Below are positions 801-50,391 of a stretch of 64,000 bases of DNA, one piece after another. A program made the translations under genes and the position numbers. The DNA is from Apostichopus japonicus. Lineage: Eukaryota > Echinodermata > Holothuroidea > Aspidochirotida > Stichopodidae. Each line of letters begins with the position of its first letter. Position 1 is the stretch's first letter. The DNA lies in NCBI RefSeq assembly GCF_037975245.1, contig NC_092579.1, positions 30,465,666 to 30,529,665 of the forward strand. The letters are read 5' to 3'. The notes under the pieces were generated by a model, which saw only the letters and a program-made list of their open reading frames with translations, did no database searches and was not told the origin of the DNA.

Positions 801-1889
801 TATTTCTAGAAGTACTCGCTATTTGGCGACCGTGACTAAAAATCTACTCATCAAATTACACTCGCCAGTAGTTCTATGATTGTTGTTCAAGTCTCCAAAC
901 TACAGATTTGCAACATCAATACTTTCTATGAACAAAGGTTAGGCAGTTAGGCAATTACATGGTGCTACGTATTTGCGCATTGGAAAGTCATGTTTCTTTG
1001 CAGTATGAAATTTAACCTTTTTCCACCAAAAGTAAGTGTTGAACAAAGTAAAACATGACCCAGAATCATAAATAAGCAGTCAAGCCTACTGCAATGTCTT
1101 AAACAATTAAAAATAAAACGTCTGTAAAACCACCTACGAAGATAGCTTAGCTTATGTCACATTATTGCTCCTATATTACTAGGTATACAGTAGCTAGGTG
1201 TGCGCGAGTCCTAAGCCTCTACAGTACCTTACTACTACTTTGAACCGCTACTCGATTAGCGCGACTTCGTACATTTGTCCCGTTAATTATCTTGTTTGAT
1301 AGCTGCAGATTGATGCGCTATTACTCCATTAAACTGCCTGAATCAAAGCGATCTTTTACGCAATGAAAATCTGAGGTTGTAAGAGCATCGATCTTCCAAA
1401 AATCCTAGCAGCAACAACAGCAAACTTGTCTCAAAACTCCTTAAATTGTTCTATACTCCGCGAATTCTGACTGATATCCAGCCAGCTGGAATTAAGGAGA
1501 TGTTTTGCCATCTTAAGTGTATTGGTATCCTGACTGGTATTGTTCACGTTGTTGTGTTAACGAACCCTATTCTTCCCAACCGTTGCTGGCCTAGACAACA
1601 TAAAATTGCTCACAGGCCTATAGCCAGGTTAGTTCAAGTTGTCCCATAATCATAAACGTGATGACAGTCGAACGTTACTTTTAAGGCTTAGATATGCTGA
1701 AACTGGTGGAAGAGACTACACAAATTGAGATCAACAGCCGATCCAGACAAAAGCTCATGAACTTACTGCAAACTAAGACCGTTTTACACAATTATTTGGC
1801 ATTAGAGATTGGTCATAGCAAAAACTATAACTAGACGAACTGTTAAGTTTCATAAACGTTGCCTGGTCACAACGAACTACATCCAACCT
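801..1889. other. No gene seen
   Basis: Unique-looking AT-rich DNA. Short open frames exist but carry no recognisable motif, and no splice-consistent exon or RNA gene was found. Confidence 0.5.
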
Positions 1890-2300
1890 TCCATTCTTGA
1901 GTTGTCGTATTTACAAGGTTTTCACAATTTGACCTCTAGTGACCCCAAATGTTCTTGGACCTCCACTAAAATCAAAAGAGATATTGAACTCAATGTGGTA
2001 CTCCTTCACACGAAAGGCGAGATCGATCCAAGCTATTCTTCTTGAGATATCGTGTTTACAAGGTTTACTCAATTTGACCCCTGGTGACCCAAAAGGGCTT
2101 TTATCTCCACAAACAACTATAGGCTTTTGCTCCTAAATGTGGTCCTCCTACTCACGAAATATGAAATTGGTCCAAGTTTACCTCCTGGAGATATCGTGTT
2201 TACAAGGTTTTCACTATTTGGCCCCTGGTGACCCCAAATGACCTTTGACCTCCCCACAAAACAATAGGGTTCTTCTACTCAATGTGGTACTCATATACAC
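1890..2300 (+). repeat. Tandem ~130 bp repeat, about three units
   Basis: Three successive units each contain a version of GATATCGTGTTTACAAGG, then TTGACCCCTGGTGACCC, then a CTCAATGTGGTACTCC-like word. The last unit (about 2190-2300) also has GACCTTTGACCTCCCC and CAATAGGGTTCTTCTACTC. This last unit is the reverse complement of 9035-9170 with few differences. The open frames crossing the array are by-products of the periodicity. Confidence 0.75.
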
Positions 2301-2359
2301 TAAGTATTATATATTAAAAATATCACAGCAATTGACAGGCAATTATGCTTTAAAACCAT

Positions 2360-2665
2360 AGTACAAGAGTACAAGAATGTAAAAATTTAAAATAACGTTG
2401 AATTATTAATGTTCGAGAAAGGTTTACAATTTCAGTAAATAACATCAAAACCACTGGTAAAAGTCAGCATCATGTACATCAAAACAAAAAGAAAAGAGTA
2501 CAAGAATGTAAAAATTTAAAATAACGTTGAATTATTAATGTTCGAGAAATGTTTACAATTTCAGTAAATAACATCAAAACCACTGGTAAAGTCAACATTA
2601 TGTTAAATGTTCATCAAAACTAAAGGAAAAGAGTACAAGAATGTAAAAAATTAAAATAACGTGTT
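2360..2665 (+). repeat. Tandem ~130-135 bp repeat, 2.3 units
   Basis: GAGTACAAGAATGTAAAAA begins at about 2367, 2496 and 2631, giving periods of 129 and 135. The units also share ACGTTGAATTATTAATG and ATCAAAACCACTGGTAAA. Part of a unit recurs at 2835-2870, and a larger part at 3135-3230. Confidence 0.85.
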
Positions 2666-3366
2666 GAAAGAATGTTAAATAATGTCGTAATGTTTCATAT
2701 GTTGAACATTCTTTGTACTCCCATTTACTTTTCTGAGTTTTCATCACAGTTCTTCATTCTCAGCTGAAAGGTTTGTGTACCTCAATAGGGACCTTTGAGG
2801 TATGTTGTCAAAGATTGGAGGGGGGGGGGTGGGCGTTGAATTATTAATGTTCGAGAATTGTTAACAGTGTTCATTCTTTTTCAGAGAGCTTTCTTTTTCG
2901 GATTTATTGAACAGGGTATTTGCTTTGACATAAGATTATAATGAAAATGAAGGGATTGATTAATAAATATATGTATGGCAGGAACATTTAGAGGGCAGTA
3001 AAACTCTAATATGGATGTGTTAATGGAAAAATCAGTCTCTCGTAGATCGTTGCTTATAATGGTTACATGAATCATTTTGTGATGTCATTGGCCTGCACAT
3101 GCGTGGGTGATTATTGTAAATCTAGAAAGAAATACAATTTCATTAAATACATCAAAACCACTGGTAAAAGTCAACATTATGTTAAATGTTCATCAAAACA
3201 AAAAGAAAAGAGTACAAGAATGTAAAAATATCTGGTTACACTAATTCAACTATCATCACCGAATGATAGTTGCTTCACCTTTTTAAGGATTTTTATAAGA
3301 CAGGACTATATGAGAATTATATGAGTATAACGAACAAAGTGGGTCTCAGTTCATAAGTTGAACTTT
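2666..3366. other. Spacer with detached repeat pieces and a G10 run
   Basis: This spacer holds a ten-base G run at 2820-2829 and detached pieces of the adjacent 130 bp tandem repeat at 2835-2870 and 3135-3230. No gene was recognised. It is the 3' flank of the minus-strand gene that ends at 3367. A possible AATAAA-type signal for that gene (TTTATT on the plus strand) lies near 2900, but it is distant and unproven. Confidence 0.5.
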
Positions 3367-4863
3367 TCAAAGACGGTGATATTTCTTTCTTGATCTCAAA
3401 AGTCCGTCTATGCCCTCCTCACAAATTAGTCGAAAAGCTTCTCTGCCTGGTCCTTTAGCTTGGGCGTCGTACCTTTTTAATCCGTCTTCCTTCAACCTAT
3501 TAAACTTTTGCAACTGACCACCTCTCTCTATTTTTCGAATAGGACCATCTGTAGAATGTCGTATTTGTTTTATTATTTCAGTCGTGAGATCTTGGCATTG
3601 TTCAAGTGATTTATGATAATTAGCGTTGGTTAACTGGGCCTCGGGATATTCCGTTAAGGCTTCCATAATCTGTTTGGGCCCCGATATGGCCCGTTCATCA
3701 AAACCTCGTAGTCTGTCGTTGAATAATGTTCGGACCAATGACGCAGCTTGTTTATGCTGTCGAGTAAGATCATTTTCTTCCAAGGGTAGCTGGTCCGCAA
3801 TGTCCTTCATCTTTGTATGATACATCTTTATAGCCATGGTTAGAGTGTCACCACTCATGGCCATCTGAATGCGGAATACTTCGTTTTCCATTTCACGACA
3901 ACAGTGACTTCTCACCTCCAGTTTTGTCGGACCCTTAGCCTTCGCATCAAACTCGCTCAGATGTTTTGATTTTATCTCTTTCAGTTTAGAGATAATGTCA
4001 AGTTGCTCATGCAAGCTCGATACGGAATGGTCTGCGAGATATTGCACACATTCGGTGCTCGCGCGTGCCACAATATTTGAGCGCAGGTTTTCGCAAAAAG
4101 CGTGAGATAGGGTGGAGTTCACGAGTAAGAAGTGTTCTTTCTTGTCTTCCATATTGGATCTTAAAATCGATTCATTTGTTTGTATCTTCTCTGGATTTAT
4201 TCCTTTACAGCGACTTTGATATTCATTTAGTACTTCCTGGTCGACGGCAGCAAATTTCCTCTGGATCTCTTCAGAATCATATCGTGCCTCTACCACGATG
4301 TTGTGCAACATATCTCGATATTTGCCGATAGCATCGGAACAAGCGAAATCGGCCACCGGCATTTCGGTATTTATGTCCAACTGTAGTTCTTCCCTCACTT
4401 CTTTTTTGTCCGGGCCGCTGGCTTCCTCGTCGTATTCTTTCAGAACGGTTTCCTTCGTGCGTTCTAATTCTGCAAAATTGCAATTTGCAATCTCCTCCAA
4501 AACTGGTTTAAGATGGCGCTGTTTAAGTTCTCTCGCTATTTCCGTACAGCTGTTTGATTCGGTTTTGTGGCTCGAATTGGATGTTGTACTGACTGAATTT
4601 GAACGTGATTTGCTATTTTGATGAGATACTGCAACGCCTCCTAGATTGGAATTAGAGTCCGCTCCTGGTTGCTGTGGAGGGAGTGATCGAGGTCTTGGTA
4701 CCGGAGTTCCTGGGGGCCTCGGACGAAGAACTGGCTTTCGTCTTGGGGCTACTGGTTTAGGATGGCCCTTCTCCTTTGCTACGAGAACAGAGGGCGGACG
4801 AGCTGCAACAGGTGGTCCTAGTATAGATAACAAAAAATATACTAAATGTGCTCCATGATGCAT
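3367..4863 (-). CDS. GTPase-less protein with five atlastin/GBP-like helical repeats and a signal-peptide-like start
   Basis: This intact 498-codon frame is the longest in the window. An in-frame TGA lies six codons upstream of the chosen ATG, so the start is well bounded. Residues 1-21 are hydrophobic (LVYFLLSIL core, PPVAA end) like a cleavable signal peptide. Residues 22-68 are rich in Pro and Arg, and 69-105 in Ser and Asn. From 106 on, an ~80-residue unit recurs five times, each ending in an amphipathic helix followed by an aromatic-D-x-x-A-x-G-P signature: YDEEASGP (144), YQSRCKGI (215), FDAKAKGP (305), FDERAISGP (388) and YDAQAKGP (465). Heptad-like Leu/Ile/Glu/Lys helices precede and follow each. 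The pattern resembles the helical middle or C-terminal part of atlastin/guanylate-binding dynamin-like GTPases, but no P-loop, switch or RD motif is present. Family assignment is tentative. It could also be an unrelated coiled-coil protein. Being intronless, it may be a retrocopy or a lineage-specific gene. Confidence 0.7.
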   Translation of the reverse strand: MHHGAHLVYFLLSILGPPVAARPPSVLVAKEKGHPKPVAPRRKPVLRPRPPGTPVPRPRSLPPQQPGADSNSNLGGVAVSHQNSKSRSNSVSTTSNSSHKTESNSCTEIARELKQRHLKPVLEEIANCNFAELERTKETVLKEYDEEASGPDKKEVREELQLDINTEMPVADFACSDAIGKYRDMLHNIVVEARYDSEEIQRKFAAVDQEVLNEYQSRCKGINPEKIQTNESILRSNMEDKKEHFLLVNSTLSHAFCENLRSNIVARASTECVQYLADHSVSSLHEQLDIISKLKEIKSKHLSEFDAKAKGPTKLEVRSHCCREMENEVFRIQMAMSGDTLTMAIKMYHTKMKDIADQLPLEENDLTRQHKQAASLVRTLFNDRLRGFDERAISGPKQIMEALTEYPEAQLTNANYHKSLEQCQDLTTEIIKQIRHSTDGPIRKIERGGQLQKFNRLKEDGLKRYDAQAKGPGREAFRLICEEGIDGLLRSRKKYHRL

Positions 4864-5792
4864 TTTATATGATTGCTTTCAGTCTGCTCTGTGATCAATC
4901 TATCATCGACGGGGTGTTTTTTTCTGACAATATTATCTTGCTAATTATGTAGGTTATTCTAATAAAAGTAAAACACTTCGACTTTTCAGTTCAATTGACA
5001 ATGATAATGTCAAAAACGCTGTTTTGCTAGATACATATAAACTTCAGAAAAAATCATATATCAAACTGCAATTCTTTGCGAAGAAAAATACTATATGCAC
5101 CTTACTTAACAATTAGTGACGTAAAAGTTTAGAGAAGAATTTTTAATTAAGCCATACTTGTCACAGACTTAATCATATAAACGTACTTTTGCATTATTAT
5201 TTGTTTCTTTCTTTTTAAAGGACACGAAACTTCCTCAAATAAGATTTAATTTTGAACGGTGTTCAATATATATGATATACATTATCAGTAATCAAAATTT
5301 CGAGGATCAAATTTAAAATAATAATAATAATACCAAACATGTATAGCGCGATAAGCACCGGCATCAATGCGCTTTTCAAAAATGGAATAAATCTTAAAAA
5401 CTACACAAAAATGAACTTTACAGATGTTAGTAAAGTCTTGGTCTGCGAGCACGGACTATCGATCTGTATCTTACGTGTTTACAATAAATTAAGCATTTTC
5501 GCTATATTGTTCGACGTTACAATAAAAGATATTATTTAAATTTAATAAACGGAATGAGTGTTTCTTCAGTAATCACAAAAGTGAAAGTTTGCAGACCTTA
5601 CAAATTAACATACCCTTCAAATTTCTTGGAACGATTTTAGCTTGCTCCCCGAGTTTCTTTTCTAGCATCTGGTGCTGCGCATGCTCGGATAACGCACGAG
5701 AATCTTCCATCTTTGAACAACGTCTGCTTGAAAATAATGATAAAATAATAATAACAACAACAATAGCAACAACAACAATAACAGCATCAATA
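4864..5792. other. 5' flank of the 498-residue gene; no gene seen
   Basis: Very AT-rich DNA with short (ATA)n and (ACA)n runs at about 5320-5332 and 5745-5775. It must contain any promoter of the minus-strand gene that starts at 4863, but I could not identify a convincing TATA box or initiator. The ATCATATAAA immediately before the ATG is too close to serve as a TATA box for that start. Confidence 0.4.
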
Positions 5793-6727
5793 GGGTCATT
5801 CCATATCAAATAACCAAATTTTGGTGTAGGTTGTAGTCCGAACTTTTTGAAAAAATACCAAATTATTGTATGTTTGGAACATCATGGAATAAGCACATGA
5901 TGTGACTTTCAGTTGCTTTGCTTCAAAATTGGCCGATTTATCGCACTTTAAAAATTCCGTAATTTGTCGCCACTGTGGCATTTTGGCATCTTCTTGATTT
6001 TTGAGGTCTGATTTCTCTGCAGTTAAACATTCTACTAACTTTCTATGACAGAAACCTATAGACTCTATATCATGGGAAAAGGCTATAAAAGCATTGTCTT
6101 GTGGAGTTAGGTTAATTTAAAAGTGCCAAAATATTCTATTTTGGTATTTTTCGCAAAGCAATGTGTTATTTTTAGTGATAAATTGCTCCTTTGCTTTAGG
6201 ATACTTGATTCTTTCAGAGATTATTATGTCCCGTCCAAGCAATACCAAATAATGATCACAATGCATTCTAGTAGTATATTTGCAAGTTGTGCAGTTCTAA
6301 AGTTACTATCTCATGCTGCGTATTTTGCCTTATTTGTAAATGAAAAATGCTCCAAGTTTGGAATTTTATACAAAAACCCCCATAAAGTTTTTGCCTGTTT
6401 TGCTGTTCCATATGTTTTTGAGCCTGGATATTGTATTTCAAGGTCATTCAAGTCAATACTGTGCAGATTTCAATGTCATTTAAACAAATAATATTCTGGA
6501 TTCATTCACTTTATTAAAAGACTACTATAAAATGAATGTCAATCAATACACATGTCCCGAGTGTATTATTAATTCAAATGTGCAGACATTCTGTTTTGCC
6601 AAATGCCACGGTGGCGACAAGTTTACAGAATATGCTTATTTCATGGTGCTCTAATCATGCAATGAGTGTGGTAATATTTTGGAGAGGGTCCAGCAACAGC
6701 CATACGTGAATTGACACAGAATGACCC
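5793..6727. mobile_element. Foldback MITE-like element with GGGTCATTC termini
   Basis: The left end GGGTCATTCCATATCAA (5793-5809) is matched inverted by TTGACACAGAATGACCC (6711-6727), with 14 of 17 bases pairing. A second inner inverted pair lies at 5963-5988 and 6597-6620, built around GTCGCCACTGTGGCATTTTG. The flanking bases on both sides are AATA, a possible 4 bp target-site duplication inside a simple ATA-rich stretch. The interior carries no transposase. A hydrophobic open frame at 6123-6491 has no recognisable motif. I interpret it as a non-autonomous DNA transposon of unassigned superfamily. Confidence 0.7.
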
Positions 6728-34168: not shown

Positions 34169-36729
34169 GTTAACATGCCTCATGTAAAACATAACGTTGT
34201 ATTGGGGTTGTGTTTATTGTCTTGGTCAACATGCCTCATGTAAAACATAACGTTGTATTGGGGTTGTGTTTATTGTCTCGGTCAACATGCCTCATGTAAA
34301 ACATAACGTTGTATTGGGGTTGTTTATTGTCTTGGTTAACATGCCTCATGTAAAACATAACGTTGTATTGGGGTTGTTTATTGTAACATGCCTCATGTAA
34401 AACATAGGCCTAACGTTGTAATTGGAGTTGTTTATTGTCTTGGTTAACATGCCTCATGTAAAACATAACGTTGTATTGGGGTTGTTTATTGTCGTGGTTA
34501 ACATGCCTCATGTAAAACATAACGTTGTAATTGGGGTTGTTTATTGTCTTGGTTAACATGCCTCATGTAAAACATAACGTTGTAATTGGGGTTGTTTATT
34601 GTCGTGGTTAACATGCCTCATGTAAAACATAACGTTATAATTGGGGTTGTTTGTTGTCTTGGTTAACATGCCTCATGTTAAACATAACGTTGTAATTGGG
34701 GTTGTTATTGTCTTGGTTAACATGCCTCATTTAAAACATAACGTTGTATTGGGGTTGTTTGTTGTCTTGGTGAACATGCCTCATGTTAAACATAACGTTG
34801 TAATTGGGGTTGTTATTGTCTTGGTTAACATGCCTCATGTAAAACATAACATTGTATTTGGGGTTGTTTATTGTCTTGGTTAACATGCCTCATGTTAAAC
34901 ATAACGTTGTAATTGGGGTTGTTATTGTCTTGGTTAACATGCCTCATGTAAAACATAACATTGTATTTGGGGTTGTTTATTGTCTTGGTTAACATGCCTC
35001 ATGTAAAACATAACGTTGTAATTGGGGTTGTTTATTGTCTTGGTCAACATGCCTCTCGTAAAACATAACACTGTAATTGGGGTTGTTCATTGTCTTGGTT
35101 AACATGCCTCATGTAAAACATAACTTTGTATTGGAGTTGTTTATTGTCTTGGTTAACATGCCTCATGTAAAACATAACGTTGTAATTGGAGTTGTTTATT
35201 GTCTTGGTTAACATGCCTCATGTAAAACATAACGTTGTAATTGGGGTTGTTTATTGTCTTGGTTAACATGCCTCATGTAAAACATAACGTTGTAATTGGA
35301 GTTGTTTATTGTCTTGGTTAACATGCCTCATGTAAAACATAACGTTGTAATTGGGGTTGTTTATTGTCTTGGTTAACATGCCTCATGTAAAACATAACGT
35401 TGTAATTGGAGTTGTTTATTGTCTTGGTTAACATGCCTCATGTAAAACATAACATTGTATTTGGGGTTGTTCATTGTCTTGGTTAACATGCCTCATGTAA
35501 AACATAACATTGTATTTGGGGTTGTTTATTGTCTTGGTTAACATGCCTCATGTAAAACATAACGTTGTAATTGGGGTTGTTTATTGTCTTGGTCAACATG
35601 CCTCTCGTAAAACATAACGTTGTAATTGGGGTTGTTCATTGTCTTGGTTAACATGCCTCATGTAAAACAATACGTTGTAATTTTGGTTGTTATTGTCTTG
35701 GTTAACATGCCTCATGTAAAACATAACTTTGTATTGGAGTTGTTTATTGTCTTGGTTAACATGCCTCATGTAAACAATACGTTGTAATTGGGGTTGTTTG
35801 TTGTCTTGGTGAACATGCCTCATGTTAAACATTACGTTGTAATTTGGGTTGTTTATTGTCTTGGTTAACATGCCTCATGTAAAACATAACGTTGTAACTG
35901 GAGTTGTTTATTGTCTTGGTTAACATGCCTCATGTAAAACATAACATTTGTTTGGGGTTGTTCATTGTCTTGGTTAACATGCCTCATGTAAAACATAACA
36001 TTGTATTTGGGGTTGTTTATTGTCTTGGTTAACATGCCTCATGTAAAACATAACGTTGTAATTGGGGTTGTTTATTGTCTTGGTCAACATGCCTCTCGTA
36101 AAACATAACGTTGTAATTGGGGTTGTTCATTGTCTTGGTTAACATGCCTCATGTAAAACAATACGTTGTAATTGGGGTTGTTATTGTCTTGGTTAACATG
36201 CCTCATGTAAAACATAACTTTGTATTGGAGTTGTTTATTGTCTTGGTTAACATGCCTCATGTAAAACAATACGTTGTAATTGGGGTTGTTTGTTGTCTTG
36301 GTGTACATGCCTCATGTTAAACATTACGTTGTAATTGGGGTTGTTTATTGTCTTGGTTAACATACCTCATGTAAAACATAACGTTGTAATTGGAGTTGTT
36401 TATTGTCTTGGTTAACATGCCTCATGTAAAACATAACGTTGTAATTGGGGTTGTTCATTGTCTTGGTTAACATGCCTCATGTAAAACATAACATTGTATT
36501 TGGGGTTGTTTGTTGTCTTGGTGAACATGCCTCATGTTAAACATTACGTTGTAATTGGAGTTGTTTATTGTCTTGGTTAACATGCCTCATGTAAAACATA
36601 ACGTTGTAATTGGGGTTGATTATTGTCTTGGTTAACATGCCTCATGTAAAACATAACTTTGTATTGGAGTTGTTTATTGTCTTGGTTAACATGCCTCATG
36701 TAAAACAATACGTTGTAATTGGGGTTGTG
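34169..36729 (+). repeat. ~55 bp minisatellite, about 47 copies, with higher-order structure
   Basis: The unit consists of AACATGCCTCATGTAAAACA, TAACGTTGTAATTGGGGTTG and TTTATTGTCTTGGTT (54-56 bp). Variant units (CTCTCGTAAAACATAAC; AACTTTGTATTGGAG; AACATTGTATTTGGGG; GTTAAACATTACG) recur in the same order in blocks of nine units. Positions from about 35450 to 35870 repeat at about 35940-36360, a shift of about 491 bp, with very few differences. Because units are close to 18 codons, spurious open frames with repeated MRHVNQDN or VLVNMPHVKHN peptides appear on both strands. Confidence 0.97.
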
Positions 36730-36795
36730 ATACTGTGAGACTGGATAAAACCCAGGAATTACAAACTCGATTAAGCATAAGAATATGCTTCATAG

Positions 36796-45732: not shown

Positions 45733-47030
45733 AAGGTTAAGGTTAAGGTTAAGGTGGAAACACTTGGTAAAGCGCACATTACTGTAAAAACACTCAATGG
45801 CGCTGAACAACAAAACAATTATAAAAACGATTTCTTAAATAAATGAGTCTTTAAAGCAGCTTTAAAAGTTCTGATGGTCTTCGAATTTCTTGTGTCGACG
45901 GGGAGAGCGTTCCAAAGTCTAGGGCCAGTGACGCTGAAAGAGCGGCCTGCGAAACATTTGCGGCGTGTGAAAGGAACCTTGAGAAGAATGCCCTTTGACG
46001 AGCGTGTTGAACGACCAGGTGTCTTAATTTCCAGCAACTCGGACAGATAAGCTGGTGCTGAATTATGTATACACTTATAAACGAGGAGGAGGATCTTGTA
46101 CTCAGCGCGGACATTAACGGGGAGGATGTGCAGCTCCTTCAATGCTGCGGAGGCACTATCATATTTTGATCTGCCGAGAATAATTTTAGCCGTGTAATTT
46201 TGGATCCTTTGTAGGGGATGAAGTGTGGAGGCCGGGAGGTTGATAAAAAGACCATTGCAATAGTCCATATGAGAGAAAATCGTGGCATTTGCAATTTTGA
46301 GACATGTCGACTTGTCCAAATATTTCCGGATCTTCTTCAGATTAAACATGGCGAGGGCTGATGCACGAGCTTTCATGGAAATATGATGTTTGAGATTGAG
46401 GGTTTCATCCAAGTAAACACCTAGTAGCTTCACACTATGGGTACGACGGACAGGAGTGTCCCCAATGGATAAAACGTCTGTATTGCACTTTGGTAGTTGG
46501 TGATTGCTTCCGAAAACGATAAACTCCGATTTTTCATCATTCATCTTAAGACGGTTAAATTGCATCCAGAGTTTCACATTTTCTAGAGTTGATGAAAGAC
46601 CCCTGATTGACTCAAATTCTGAAGAAACATCTCCGGGTTTAAAACTAGAGTAGATACTGTGGTCATCGGCGTAGCCAGTGAGGAATTGGTCATCACTGAT
46701 ACATGTGTTCATTGTGCTAGTATAGCAGGTGAAATATACTGGTCCATTTATACTACCCTGTGGTACAGAGAAATTGACCTTCATCGGCGTAGAAAGTGAT
46801 TTGTTTATACAAACAGCGAATTGTCTCTCAGATAAATACGACGATACCCATTTTCTAGCTACCCCGTGAACTCCGAAGCACTTCTTGAGAATGTCCAATA
46901 ACAGCTGGTGGTTGACTGTGTCAAACGCGGCACTCAAGTCCATTGCGGCAAATGGAGTTAATAACTGGCGCTCCATATTGCACATGATATCATTATATAA
47001 TTTCAGTAAGACAAATAATTTCGGTAAAAC
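45733..47030 (-). mobile_element. 5'-truncated CR1/L2-type LINE with a (TTAAGG)n-type tail
   Basis: The copy contains the C-terminal part of reverse transcriptase (see the coding entry). A short 3' untranslated region (45755-45818) follows, and it ends in three copies of the hexamer CCTTAA (plus strand TTAAGG, 45733-45754). Short tandem repeats at the 3' end are typical of CR1/L2-type LINEs. RT homology can be followed upstream of the first ATG through LLKLYNDIMCN to about 47025 and then stops, which marks 5' truncation during insertion. No clear target duplication was found. Confidence 0.85.
45819..46985 (-). CDS. LINE reverse transcriptase, C-terminal part (palm to thumb and tail)
   Basis: This intact 388-codon frame contains RT motif A (MDLSAAFDTVNH, catalytic Asp at residue 16), the VPQGS motif at 74-78 (SVPQGSINGP) and the catalytic YADD at 105-108. 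The typical LINE tail follows: a VKLLGVYLDETLNLKHHI segment (about 184-201), LPASTLHPLQRIQNYTAKII, then APAYLSELL and finally GPRLWNALPVDTRNSKTIRT with FKAALKTHLF at the end. The fingers, the endonuclease and ORF1 are missing, so the copy cannot be autonomous. The ATG shown is only the first Met in an open frame that continues upstream. The absence of frame breaks over 1.2 kb implies a recent insertion compared with the other LINE remnants in the window. Confidence 0.9.
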   Translation of the reverse strand: MCNMERQLLTPFAAMDLSAAFDTVNHQLLLDILKKCFGVHGVARKWVSSYLSERQFAVCINKSLSTPMKVNFSVPQGSINGPVYFTCYTSTMNTCISDDQFLTGYADDHSIYSSFKPGDVSSEFESIRGLSSTLENVKLWMQFNRLKMNDEKSEFIVFGSNHQLPKCNTDVLSIGDTPVRRTHSVKLLGVYLDETLNLKHHISMKARASALAMFNLKKIRKYLDKSTCLKIANATIFSHMDYCNGLFINLPASTLHPLQRIQNYTAKIILGRSKYDSASAALKELHILPVNVRAEYKILLLVYKCIHNSAPAYLSELLEIKTPGRSTRSSKGILLKVPFTRRKCFAGRSFSVTGPRLWNALPVDTRNSKTIRTFKAALKTHLFKKSFL

Positions 47031-50000
47031 AAACCCTAAGGTTTATCAAACATAATTATGCGGTATAGGAGAGGCGAGTGTTCCATTAAAATTGTCAAAT
47101 ATGTGACGTCATATATACCACCAGAAAGTGAAATATTTTAGGCTTCATTTTAAGTTTCCGCTGTATATTTCCCATTGTGTATAAGTAAGCTCTTGTGTTT
47201 TATTGAAATCCACTTCCGTATGCTGGATTCGACATCATTGTAAAACCCAACTACAGACCAATTTGATACTTAACAAATGGAAGAGATAAGAAGAACAAAT
47301 GTAATAGTTCAAGTATGTTTTTGATTAGTGATGGCATTATTAACATTGTTCAAGTCCTTGATTTTGAATGTTAGAGTATACACACACTTACACACACACA
47401 CAACAAACAAACAAACAAACGAGCAAAAATCTCTGAGCACTCATAAAGGATAATTAACAGTTTCACGAACGTAGTAGTCTGGGTTGAGCTATTCACAGCT
47501 AAAAACATTAGATTTACATTGATTAAGGTTTGGTTCATCTTTCTATTTGTTACATGTGTATCGATTTCTGAGATTAAAATTCAAACATAATAGCTTTGGA
47601 AACGATGTACATTAGTTTGTATCTTTAGACTTCCTTTGTATAGCTTTGACCATAATCACATTAACTACATAAGCTAATATTCATTGGCTAGTAACAGTTT
47701 TGCTATATTCGTATTCACTTCATTCCCATATACGACATAAATGTAGAGTATGGAGTACTACATTTTTACGATGCAGCGCCATCATAATTACAGCCAATCA
47801 GGGCTATACACTTGCAGCATACGTCACACTTTAATCTCTCGAGGTTCAAAATGTTAATTTAGCTTTCTGTTAGCTTCCTGGAAATGTATGTATGTATGTA
47901 TTTGTGCGCAGAGAATGTGAGCAGAGAAGGGGAAGGGGGGAACCTTCTGTAGATGGTTTCTTTTCAAAATTCAAAACTATTTATCAACACAAATTAACGC
48001 TGCGTGAAGTCCTAACTATAGACCTAATTTATAGTCTAAAAATGTTTCAGAATAAACCATTTGATGTCTCAACTTTGAAATTTGTTTCTGAGGGAGGACC
48101 TCTAGATACCCTACAAGTGACCCCGTGCTCAATAAACCCACAGTCAAACACCCTCATTCCATTTTTTGTATCCGTAAAGGTTCATACCCCTGCCAAGATC
48201 AGCCCGGGGGGGGGGTCGAGTTTGCCCTCCATCTTTGAAATCCAGTACACGTCAACTGCTTGTTGGTTTTCTGATAAACTGACAGGCGTCACCAAGTATG
48301 TAAATCAAGTGCCTGTCCTTTTCAAATATTTGATACATTTCATTTCTCTTTTCGTCAGAAATAACCTTTGTTTGTATTTAAATATATTTTGGGTGATAGA
48401 AAGGTATATAATATGCATCAAAGAGAGTGTAATCTTTGTTCAGAATCTTAAAAGATTTTAGTCATTTCCCCCCTACAGTTTTGTATATCCGAATGTTATC
48501 GAAATGGTTCTTACATTAATAGATACATTTATGTAAAGATTTATTAATTTTTATATAGTTTGAGCATGAAGTCTCTTCTAACTCCATGGTTTGAGGCTTA
48601 AATGTGGCCCTTAATTATCGAGGTTAATCTTCTCAACAATATGAAAAGCTATCAGTGCTGTCCAAAAAATATGCAAGAAATTCGAATATTAGTAACTCGT
48701 GTTTAACAATCATTTGACAGTCACTCTCAAATCATTCAGAATTAGCCTCAGCAAAGTACATTTGACGTTTATTTTTTTTTCAACAATATTTGAGCATATT
48801 AAAACTTGGAGGCAAACACCGAACTTTATGTAAATCTAGGATGAAAACGTTATTAAAATGATTTATTAAAAAATATTTAGCTTCATAGAGTTTCCGACGA
48901 CTGACTTATTTCGCACTGCAGTAATTTTTGTATTGTAAACCCTCCTGATGGATTCTTGTACAGTTTATTATGAAATTTAAATAATTCAGCCATTATTTAA
49001 TATATTATGTTTAGAGTTAAAAATCTGGGGAAAAAAGGAATTTGGTTTGGTTTCAAATTGAGCTTTTTCTATTCACTTATAAACATGTGGCCTAACACAT
49101 GACTAGCAGCGTTCCGAACAGCTGGGATTTACTTTGAACGAGTAACTATTTTCGTCCTGCTGGGAACTATTCCTGCAGCTAACCGTCTCGTCACTGTGAA
49201 TTATCAAACCCACGGCGCTATATATGCTCGGTGTGTTTCCATATTACTAAGATCATATGAAAATATAGGTTATTAGCTTGACTTCACGTATCAATAGCGC
49301 AAATAAAACCCAAACAATATTGTAAATTCCCCAAAAGATGCACAAATATATAGAAATCTCTAGTGTTCTAGCGATTTTCAAGTCAAAGACACCTGTCGGA
49401 AAGAAGAATTACTTTACAATTATATGGAATGTGCGGATCTCTTGCTTTCTTCTGGTTTCAAATGCAAATTGTTAGTGGTCGGGGGGGGGGGGGCGGTGGG
49501 GGTAGTCACCTCGTCCCATTGGGTTTCTACGTCTCTGACTTAAGATCTCAGCCTTCAGCAACAGGCCAGCTAGTTGGAACGTATCAAAAGATCAATATAT
49601 AGTATATTTGAAAGGGTTTCCAGGTATGCTACTTTTCATTTCTTAAAATTGGATTAGTCCATGGTCCCATGGAGATCGACTGTCTCCCAATAAATGTTGC
49701 TATAGGCTGGTCTAGTTGTCGAAATATTCACTCTTTTTTGCTGATAAAGATGTTAATAGTCTTGTGTAATTACCCCCTGGCCTATCGAGCACTTAAAGGA
49801 AATAACACCTGACATTTATTTACCTTTGTTTGTGTTCTTTACTTATCTCATTCAAATTAGTTTCTTAATTCTAATCTCTGACTTGCTGAGTTCATTAAAC
49901 AAAGTATTTATTTCTGCATAATAATTGTGAGTATGTGTTTCCTACGTTCTTTGGCCCTTTAGGCGTGTATATTGTTACCTTTAGCATCGAATATATGCTT

Positions 50001-50175: not shown

Positions 50176-50391
50176 AGCACTTTGTAAAGACTTCTCGGCC
50201 TTTTGGCTAAGATCATGTGTAGTATCTGTTCCCTTTCGAGGGGAATGGTGATGCACACGACGATTATCACACAGCCATAGTCCCGATGCAAGGGGACTTG
50301 GGTTGGGAGCGGATCAGTCGTTCGGTACTTTGGTTTTCGTGCCCAGGTTCTTTCCTGGGTGACTTTTCTTAAAAAGTACTTTGTACAGACT
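50176..50391 (+). mobile_element. SINE-like retroposon with a U2 snRNA-derived head
   Basis: Positions 50191-50231 reproduce the 5' part of U2 snRNA from CTTCTCGGCCTTTTGGCTAA through GTGTAGTATCTGTTC, with a single substitution (AAGATCAT in place of AAGATCAA). They include the GUAGUA branch-site-pairing sequence. After 50231 the sequence leaves U2 abruptly; there is no stem IIa, Sm site or 3' stem-loops. The ~140 bp body has two hairpins (GTCCC..GGGAC; CCCAGG..CCTGGG) and ends CTTTTCTTAAAA. A 17 bp direct repeat with two mismatches flanks it (AGCACTTTGTAAAGACT 50176-50192; AGTACTTTGTACAGACT 50375-50391), as expected for a LINE-mobilised insertion. Confidence 0.75.
50191..50231 (+). ncRNA. U2 snRNA 5' segment (pseudogenic/retroposed)
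   Basis: Forty-one bases correspond to roughly nucleotides 5-45 of U2 snRNA, including stem-loop I and the branch-point recognition region. It cannot be a working U2 gene because the rest of the RNA is replaced by unrelated sequence. It is the head of the retroposon described at 50176-50391. Confidence 0.85.

Follow-up and report, generated by a model that had tools for sequence, protein, structure and literature searches.

A U2-headed SINE of the echinoderm Apostichopus japonicus with probable source units inside the host's U2 snRNA genes

Short interspersed elements (SINEs) headed by small nuclear RNAs are reportedly known from crocodilians, where Kojima (2015) is said to have described them as SINEU and to have linked them to LINEs of the Tx1 clade. 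The promoters of snRNA genes lie outside the transcribed part, which makes the transcription of an snRNA-headed SINE a puzzle. SINEU is cited in several papers (PMC4640811, PMC7245038, PMC5753468), and the first of these gives the APE-type Keno and the RLE-type Utopia as LINEs that reside in U2 genes. Here we describe a U2-headed SINE family from A. japonicus, which places an snRNA-headed SINE in an echinoderm, beginning with a copy in a 64-kb stretch of DNA (hereinafter the window; C19:30465666–30529665) and extending to the whole genome (671,581,487 bases, 35 contigs). We consider it probable that this SINE has no promoter of its own, resides in U2 snRNA genes and is sourced from the U2 genes it has hijacked. 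A U2-headed SINE in an echinoderm was not found among the matches listed from the open-licence literature.

The window copy occupies positions 50191–50378 of the forward strand and is the only one in the 64 kb searched. It accounts for the window's sole Rfam match at the gathering threshold, to U2 (50187–50279; 48.2 bits versus a cut-off of 46), in which the sequence-level alignment is confined to the first ~45 model positions. The head (50191–50231) corresponds to U2 nt 5–45 and shows one substitution relative to a human-type U2 reference. The first-pass annotation had recognized this head, proposed comparing it with the host's true U2 genes, and counted the substitution as a departure from U2; the head stands, and the substitution is the host's own variant, T being also the base at nt 30 of host U2, which is identical to the head at 41/41 positions. 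U2 nt 1–4 are missing from this copy and present in the family consensus. The body (50232–50378, forward strand) runs to the family's sharp 3′ terminus, TTAAAAAGTA, as defined by the alignment of copies; it has no match to any Rfam family (best E-value 4.8), and its predicted fold includes a 3′ hairpin (50341–50360, forward strand) with a 7-bp stem, GCCCAGG/CCUGGGU, and the loop UUCUUU. Direct-repeat comparison gives a target-site duplication (TSD) of 13 bp with one mismatch, namely CTTTGTAAAGACT on the left (50180–50192, forward strand), the last two bases of which overlap U2 nt 5–6, and CTTTGTACAGACT on the right (50379–50391, forward strand). The repeat had been given earlier as 17 bp with two mismatches; it shortens to 13 bp because an alignment of 37 copies assigns the remaining AGTA to the 3′ terminus of the element itself. 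Of 20,000 positions sampled at random in the window, 13 show a 17-mer repeat with at most two mismatches at similar spacing. Elsewhere the window contains a satellite with a 55-bp unit (34169–36731; about 43 copies, 91% matches), a reverse transcriptase open frame (RVT_1; 45822–47042, reverse strand) with a short CCTTAA repeat on its 3′ side, and a 503-codon open frame (3370–4878, reverse strand) with no Pfam or PDB match.

Genome-wide, a 20-mer spanning the head/body junction recurs exactly at 602 places (320 + 282), with none for the control. A search with a 216-base query yielded 2806 first-look candidates, the best 40 of which were scored to give 46 match rows; 45 of these span at least query positions 27–200. 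Since the exact junction is present in just 21 of the 37 aligned copies and is nevertheless found at 602 places, this majority subfamily, which includes the window copy, probably numbers roughly a thousand copies, if not more. The copies in the U2 array described below belong to a second subfamily, which has 149 exact junctions (76 + 73; control 0), of which three lie within the array; in a set of fetched copies chosen by similarity to the window copy, 71 of 73 are nearer the majority consensus. The element is ~191–195 nt long, comprising a head of host U2 nt 1–45 and a body of ~147 nt ending in AAAAAGTA. The consensus of the 37 copies (those matching the query from nt ≤7 to ≥184, with the satellite-bearing locus L056 left out) starts with ATCGCTTCTC, that is, at U2 nt 1, equals host U2 throughout nt 1–45, and ends in AAAAAGTA with no poly(A). 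The AGTA end is kept in 33 of the 37, and 59 of 68 BLAST matches reach the last consensus base. At the 5′ end, the U2 start ATCG is complete in only nine of the 37 and TCG is kept in 13. Among 62 copies with a 3′ end (duplicate loci, L056, U2 loci, and the 6/68 matches that stop before the 3′ end being excluded), the alignment begins at nt 1 in 22; the start lies at nt ≤7 in 50 and later (nt 9–141) in 12. TSD scores of at least 7 were obtained for 27 of these 62, versus 0.26% of shuffled pairings, and the TSDs of dispersed copies have lengths of 7–18, with 12–14 the most frequent.

The element is thus short, non-coding, multicopy and interspersed, with varied TSDs, in the manner of SINEs, and the suggestion of a multicopy U2-headed SINE in a marine invertebrate, which the first-pass annotation had made conditional on copy number, is borne out by these exact junctions and differing duplications. 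Mean divergence from the consensus over nt 5–194 is 3.8% (median 5.1% in the 37-copy set when some flanking bases are included), both values coming from sets biased to similar copies; the head (3.77%) and the body (3.78%) have diverged equally, as dead copies would, and the dispersed copies look neutral. As anticipated for a eukaryotic element, it was not found in the viral contigs, prokaryote contigs, plasmids and phages searched. Two loci hold related sequences of other kinds: L056 (C3, ~3.635 Mb; 613–1626 in reverse-complement coordinates) is a tandem array of ~6 units of mostly 171 bp, each corresponding to SINE query nt 19–185, and hence a small satellite derived from SINE sequence; L046:529–700 is a relative with 74–78% similarity, probably of an older subfamily.

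A U2 query gave 1064 first-look candidates, and the best 40, which were scored, are all U2-like: 36 lie in a tandem array on contig C16, with a spacing of mostly 645 bp, and four on C15. The latter (C15:3624569, 6370786, 6478695 and 6532141) are U2 genes outside the 645-bp array, and their promoter is unlike that of C16. In the host U2 genes inspected, nt 1–45 match the SINE head at every position, including T30. Some gaps between the C16 genes contain insertions, and at one locus (L074) two U2 genes carry the SINE in the order U2 promoter, U2 nt 1–45, body, and U2 from nt 39 onward. The junction of the SINE 3′ end with U2 nt 39 occurs exactly at six places genome-wide, all in the C16 array, in a search whose pattern itself fixes the position at U2 nt 38/39; the array accordingly holds at least six SINE copies inserted at this position. 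Five of the six directly follow an intact U2 promoter (110/110), and the U2 part that precedes the insert in them comprises nt 1–40, 1–42, 1–45, 1–45 and 1–53. In these five, therefore, the U2 promoter, the U2 5′ end and the body constitute a physical unit. A host U2 locus with the same downstream sequence as its normal flank had been named beforehand as a finding that would speak against a SINE; such U2 loci do exist, but they do not refute it, because the element there is an insertion and the neighboring U2 genes are uninterrupted.

L109, a dispersed copy on C2, matches the array copy at 31133742 at 191/191 positions, and L108 and L110–L115, of the same subfamily as the array copies, are 92.4–99.5% identical to the closer array copy, the comparison for L110 and L111 covering <175 nt. 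The array units at 31132299 and 31133742 differ from each other in a loop (CCCTTAGGG/CCCCTCGGG). None of the eight loci L108–L115 contains the last 60 bases of the C16 promoter. The promoter-linked copies that we found are all in the C16 array; a query joining the C15-type U2 promoter to the SINE retrieved no promoter-linked copy among the 40 scored.

The insertion sites retain a memory of U2. The U2 target is GTGTAGTA/TCTG (the slash marks the cut), and the dispersed sites have A before the cut in 23/27 (P = 6.5e-9) and C or T at +1 in 22/27 (P = 7.6e-4). Without the tandem re-insertion L025, the remaining 26 sites average 4.04 matches to the 12-nt U2 site, versus 3.12 at random places (p = 0.0022); the signal falls at positions −3 to +2, and the U2 base at +4 is present in only 1/26. 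Dispersed insertions thus retain a relaxed form of the U2 site. At L109 (C2, ~21.947 Mb), nine consecutive SINE 3′ ends, several of them belonging to 5′-truncated copies, are each followed by TCCTAT; this row apparently arose by repeated insertion into the junction made by the preceding insertion. The SINE's own end recreates AGTA.

The same position in U2 is used by three LINEs. In the stretches read, LINE A is represented in U2 genes by three long copies and one truncated copy (L075, L076, L079), LINE B by one long and one truncated copy (L074, L081), and LINE C by one copy with two open frames (L081), and all three are inserted at U2 nt 38/39. Pfam recognizes zinc knuckles in ORF1, and RVT_1 and Exo_endo_phos in ORF2, of both A and B, whose ORF2 products are 36% identical. 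The 5′ flank of the truncated LINE A ends at U2 nt 45, giving a TSD of about 7 bp, and that of the truncated LINE B at nt 50, giving about 12 bp. A further LINE-like insertion in the C16 array (L080, reverse complement 1236–5890), with open frames of 407 and 961 aa and an A-rich tail, lies behind a U2 promoter that has lost its U2 portion.

As to the origin of the body, comparison with the 3′ ends of host LINEs, which the first-pass annotation had advised, gave no significant similarity to the 3′ UTRs of LINE A (p = 0.47) or LINE B (p = 0.92). Immediately before U2 nt 39, LINEs B and C end in GAAAAGTA and the SINE in AAAAAGTA, so that only the last seven bases, AAAAGTA, are shared with it. Part of this shared end could derive from the target, and the case for a partner LINE is therefore built on target site and TSD, not on the tail, because AGTA is also U2 nt 35–38. 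Against the whole of LINE A on the plus strand, the body scores 29, above all 40 shuffles (maximum 25), which could point to A as the partner. Among the LINEs examined, none has the hairpin of the SINE or a significant share of its body. Free of upstream SINE sequence, the 3′ hairpin was found at just two places, neither of them a LINE: one is a divergent SINE copy (75.9% identity), and the other is what remains of a SINE over ~40 nt, with no long open frame in the vicinity. Comparison of the body with U1, U2, U4, U5, U6, 5S and the tail of the window LINE gave nothing above shuffles, and an apparent visual resemblance to the 5S box C fell short of significance (p = 0.28).

The structure of the element, its site, the identity of one dispersed copy to an array copy, and the presence of LINEs at the same U2 position are shown by the sequences; from them we propose the following life cycle as the probable explanation. 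The U2 promoter would drive transcription of the unit of U2 promoter, U2 5′ end and body from U2 nt 1 onward, and capture of that promoter best accounts for the U2 head, which would be the 5′ end of the transcript. A U2-homing LINE would then reverse transcribe the RNA from its exact 3′ end; the best candidate partner would be of the B/C type, which has AAAAGTA at its 3′ ends as the SINE does and, in the case of B, a 12-bp TSD that fits. Upon insertion into a U2 gene or the head of an old SINE, the 5′ side would be resolved by homology to the U2 head, rebuilding a promoter-driven unit, and the AGTA end would recreate an AGTA/TC target from which nested arrays could grow. Off-target insertions elsewhere would yield U2-headed copies that are dead on arrival, the window copy among them. 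U2 genes with a SINE inside, as source units, would offer a plausible answer to the promoter puzzle within one assembly. We further lean, with less assurance, toward a general version, in which snRNA-headed SINEs would be promoterless elements sustained by homing into U2 genes, the head sealing the next insertion; if true, this homing route would also cover the origin of the crocodilian SINEU. The proposed cycle is testable.

How much of this cycle the head takes part in is the point of a narrower version, the odds of which overlap those of our preferred reading and which we hold to be possible, if rather unlikely: the element would be a body-only, U2-specific non-autonomous element, dispersed copies would be a leak, and headed RNAs would never re-enter U2. 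The contiguity of the U2 5′ end with the promoter in the array copies and the neutral look of the dispersed copies are in keeping with it, and full-length array copies cannot reveal whether the inserting RNA carried a head. Against this stand copies that are not of this simple form. At 31021619 (L083), one U2 gene contains two SINEs in tandem, and at 31006757 (L082) a truncated SINE follows a LINE B-like 3′ end in a U2 gene, no intact promoter being found in the 1.5 kb upstream; both are repeated SINE insertions into occupied U2 genes. The copy at 31134540 (L087) is a 5′-truncated insertion, whose TSD, TCTGTTCTTTTCAGC, is a 15-base duplication of U2. Outside the array, in L115, a young copy interrupts the U2 head of an older SINE at nt 38/39 and only one head remains, which is what the model of 5′ joining through head homology would lead one to expect.

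A more distant alternative, which we regard as improbable, is an ordinary SINE that Pol III transcribes from internal boxes in the body and to which a single event of template switching or RNA ligation added the U2 head; the copies in U2 genes would then be hits and not sources. The best A-box-like and B-box-like words in the element do score 6/7 each. Runs of four T should hinder Pol III, however, and the element has TTTT at 50201 within the head and two further such runs; moreover, ARAGORN detected no tRNA in seven copy-bearing loci. Joining of snRNAs, U2 included, to 3′ parts of L1 by template switching or ligation has precedent (PMC13174262). Also in favor of this alternative, and against our preferred reading, none of the six exact junctions gives the majority subfamily a source embedded in U2, and those array copies in which the loop region is present are all of the other subfamily; turnover of the U2 array could be the reason. 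It leaves aside, on the other hand, that full-length copies begin at or near U2 nt 1, the very start of the U2 gene, that five array copies sit under that gene's promoter, and that six exact SINE/U2 junctions fall at one position, albeit one fixed by the search pattern.

Still less credible is a gene with a host function for a structured non-coding RNA whose 5′ end resembles U2: the whole element does fold more stably than all 200 dinucleotide shuffles (z = −3.84), yet its interspersed copies number in the hundreds, many of them flanked by TSDs, and head and body have diverged equally. Finally, a single-copy template-switch chimera or 3′-truncated U2 retropseudogene, the other possibility raised in the first-pass annotation, has precedents in mammals (PMC5322556 and PMC13174262) and agrees with the lone copy in the window, but is refuted by the hundreds of exact junctions against a control of zero and by a common 3′ end with varied TSDs.

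The family also bears on annotation. The U2 cut-off of Rfam is exceeded by 14 of 20 fetched SINE loci, and Rfam-based annotation can thus count such SINEs as U2 genes; the A. japonicus genome paper (PMC10344927) lists only 159,644 bp of SINEs and 996 splicing snRNAs. In the C16 array, moreover, SINEs and several LINEs occupy the same multicopy set of splicing genes.

Placed among described systems, the family resembles the SINEs with tRNA, 7SL or 5S heads in its size, TSDs, non-coding nature and, by our reasoning, LINE dependence, and differs from them in having no clear internal Pol III promoter and in apparently using a host snRNA promoter through insertion into the gene. With the mammalian L1/snRNA chimeras and tailless U2 retropseudogenes it has in common an snRNA 5′ part and a TSD; these (PMC13174262, PMC5322556) are single events, in contrast to an amplified family with one junction. 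Keno and Utopia (PMC4640811) occupy the same position in U2, nt 39 being the first base of their 3′ flank. That position is also the one used by LINEs A, B and C, and A and B further resemble Keno in combining, by Pfam, an APE-type endonuclease with a reverse transcriptase; their Exo_endo_phos domain, rather than a restriction-like endonuclease, sets A and B apart from Utopia. Unlike Keno and Utopia, the SINE is non-autonomous and itself carries the U2 5′ end. The closest counterpart is SINEU, likewise a short retroposon, whose head comes from U1 or U2, and the head described here is of that kind; the differences, on a comparison that leaves the bodies aside, are the echinoderm host and the source units inside U2 genes. 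snRNA-headed SINEs are thus already known in the form of SINEU, and it is the anatomy of the source genes that we believe to be new.
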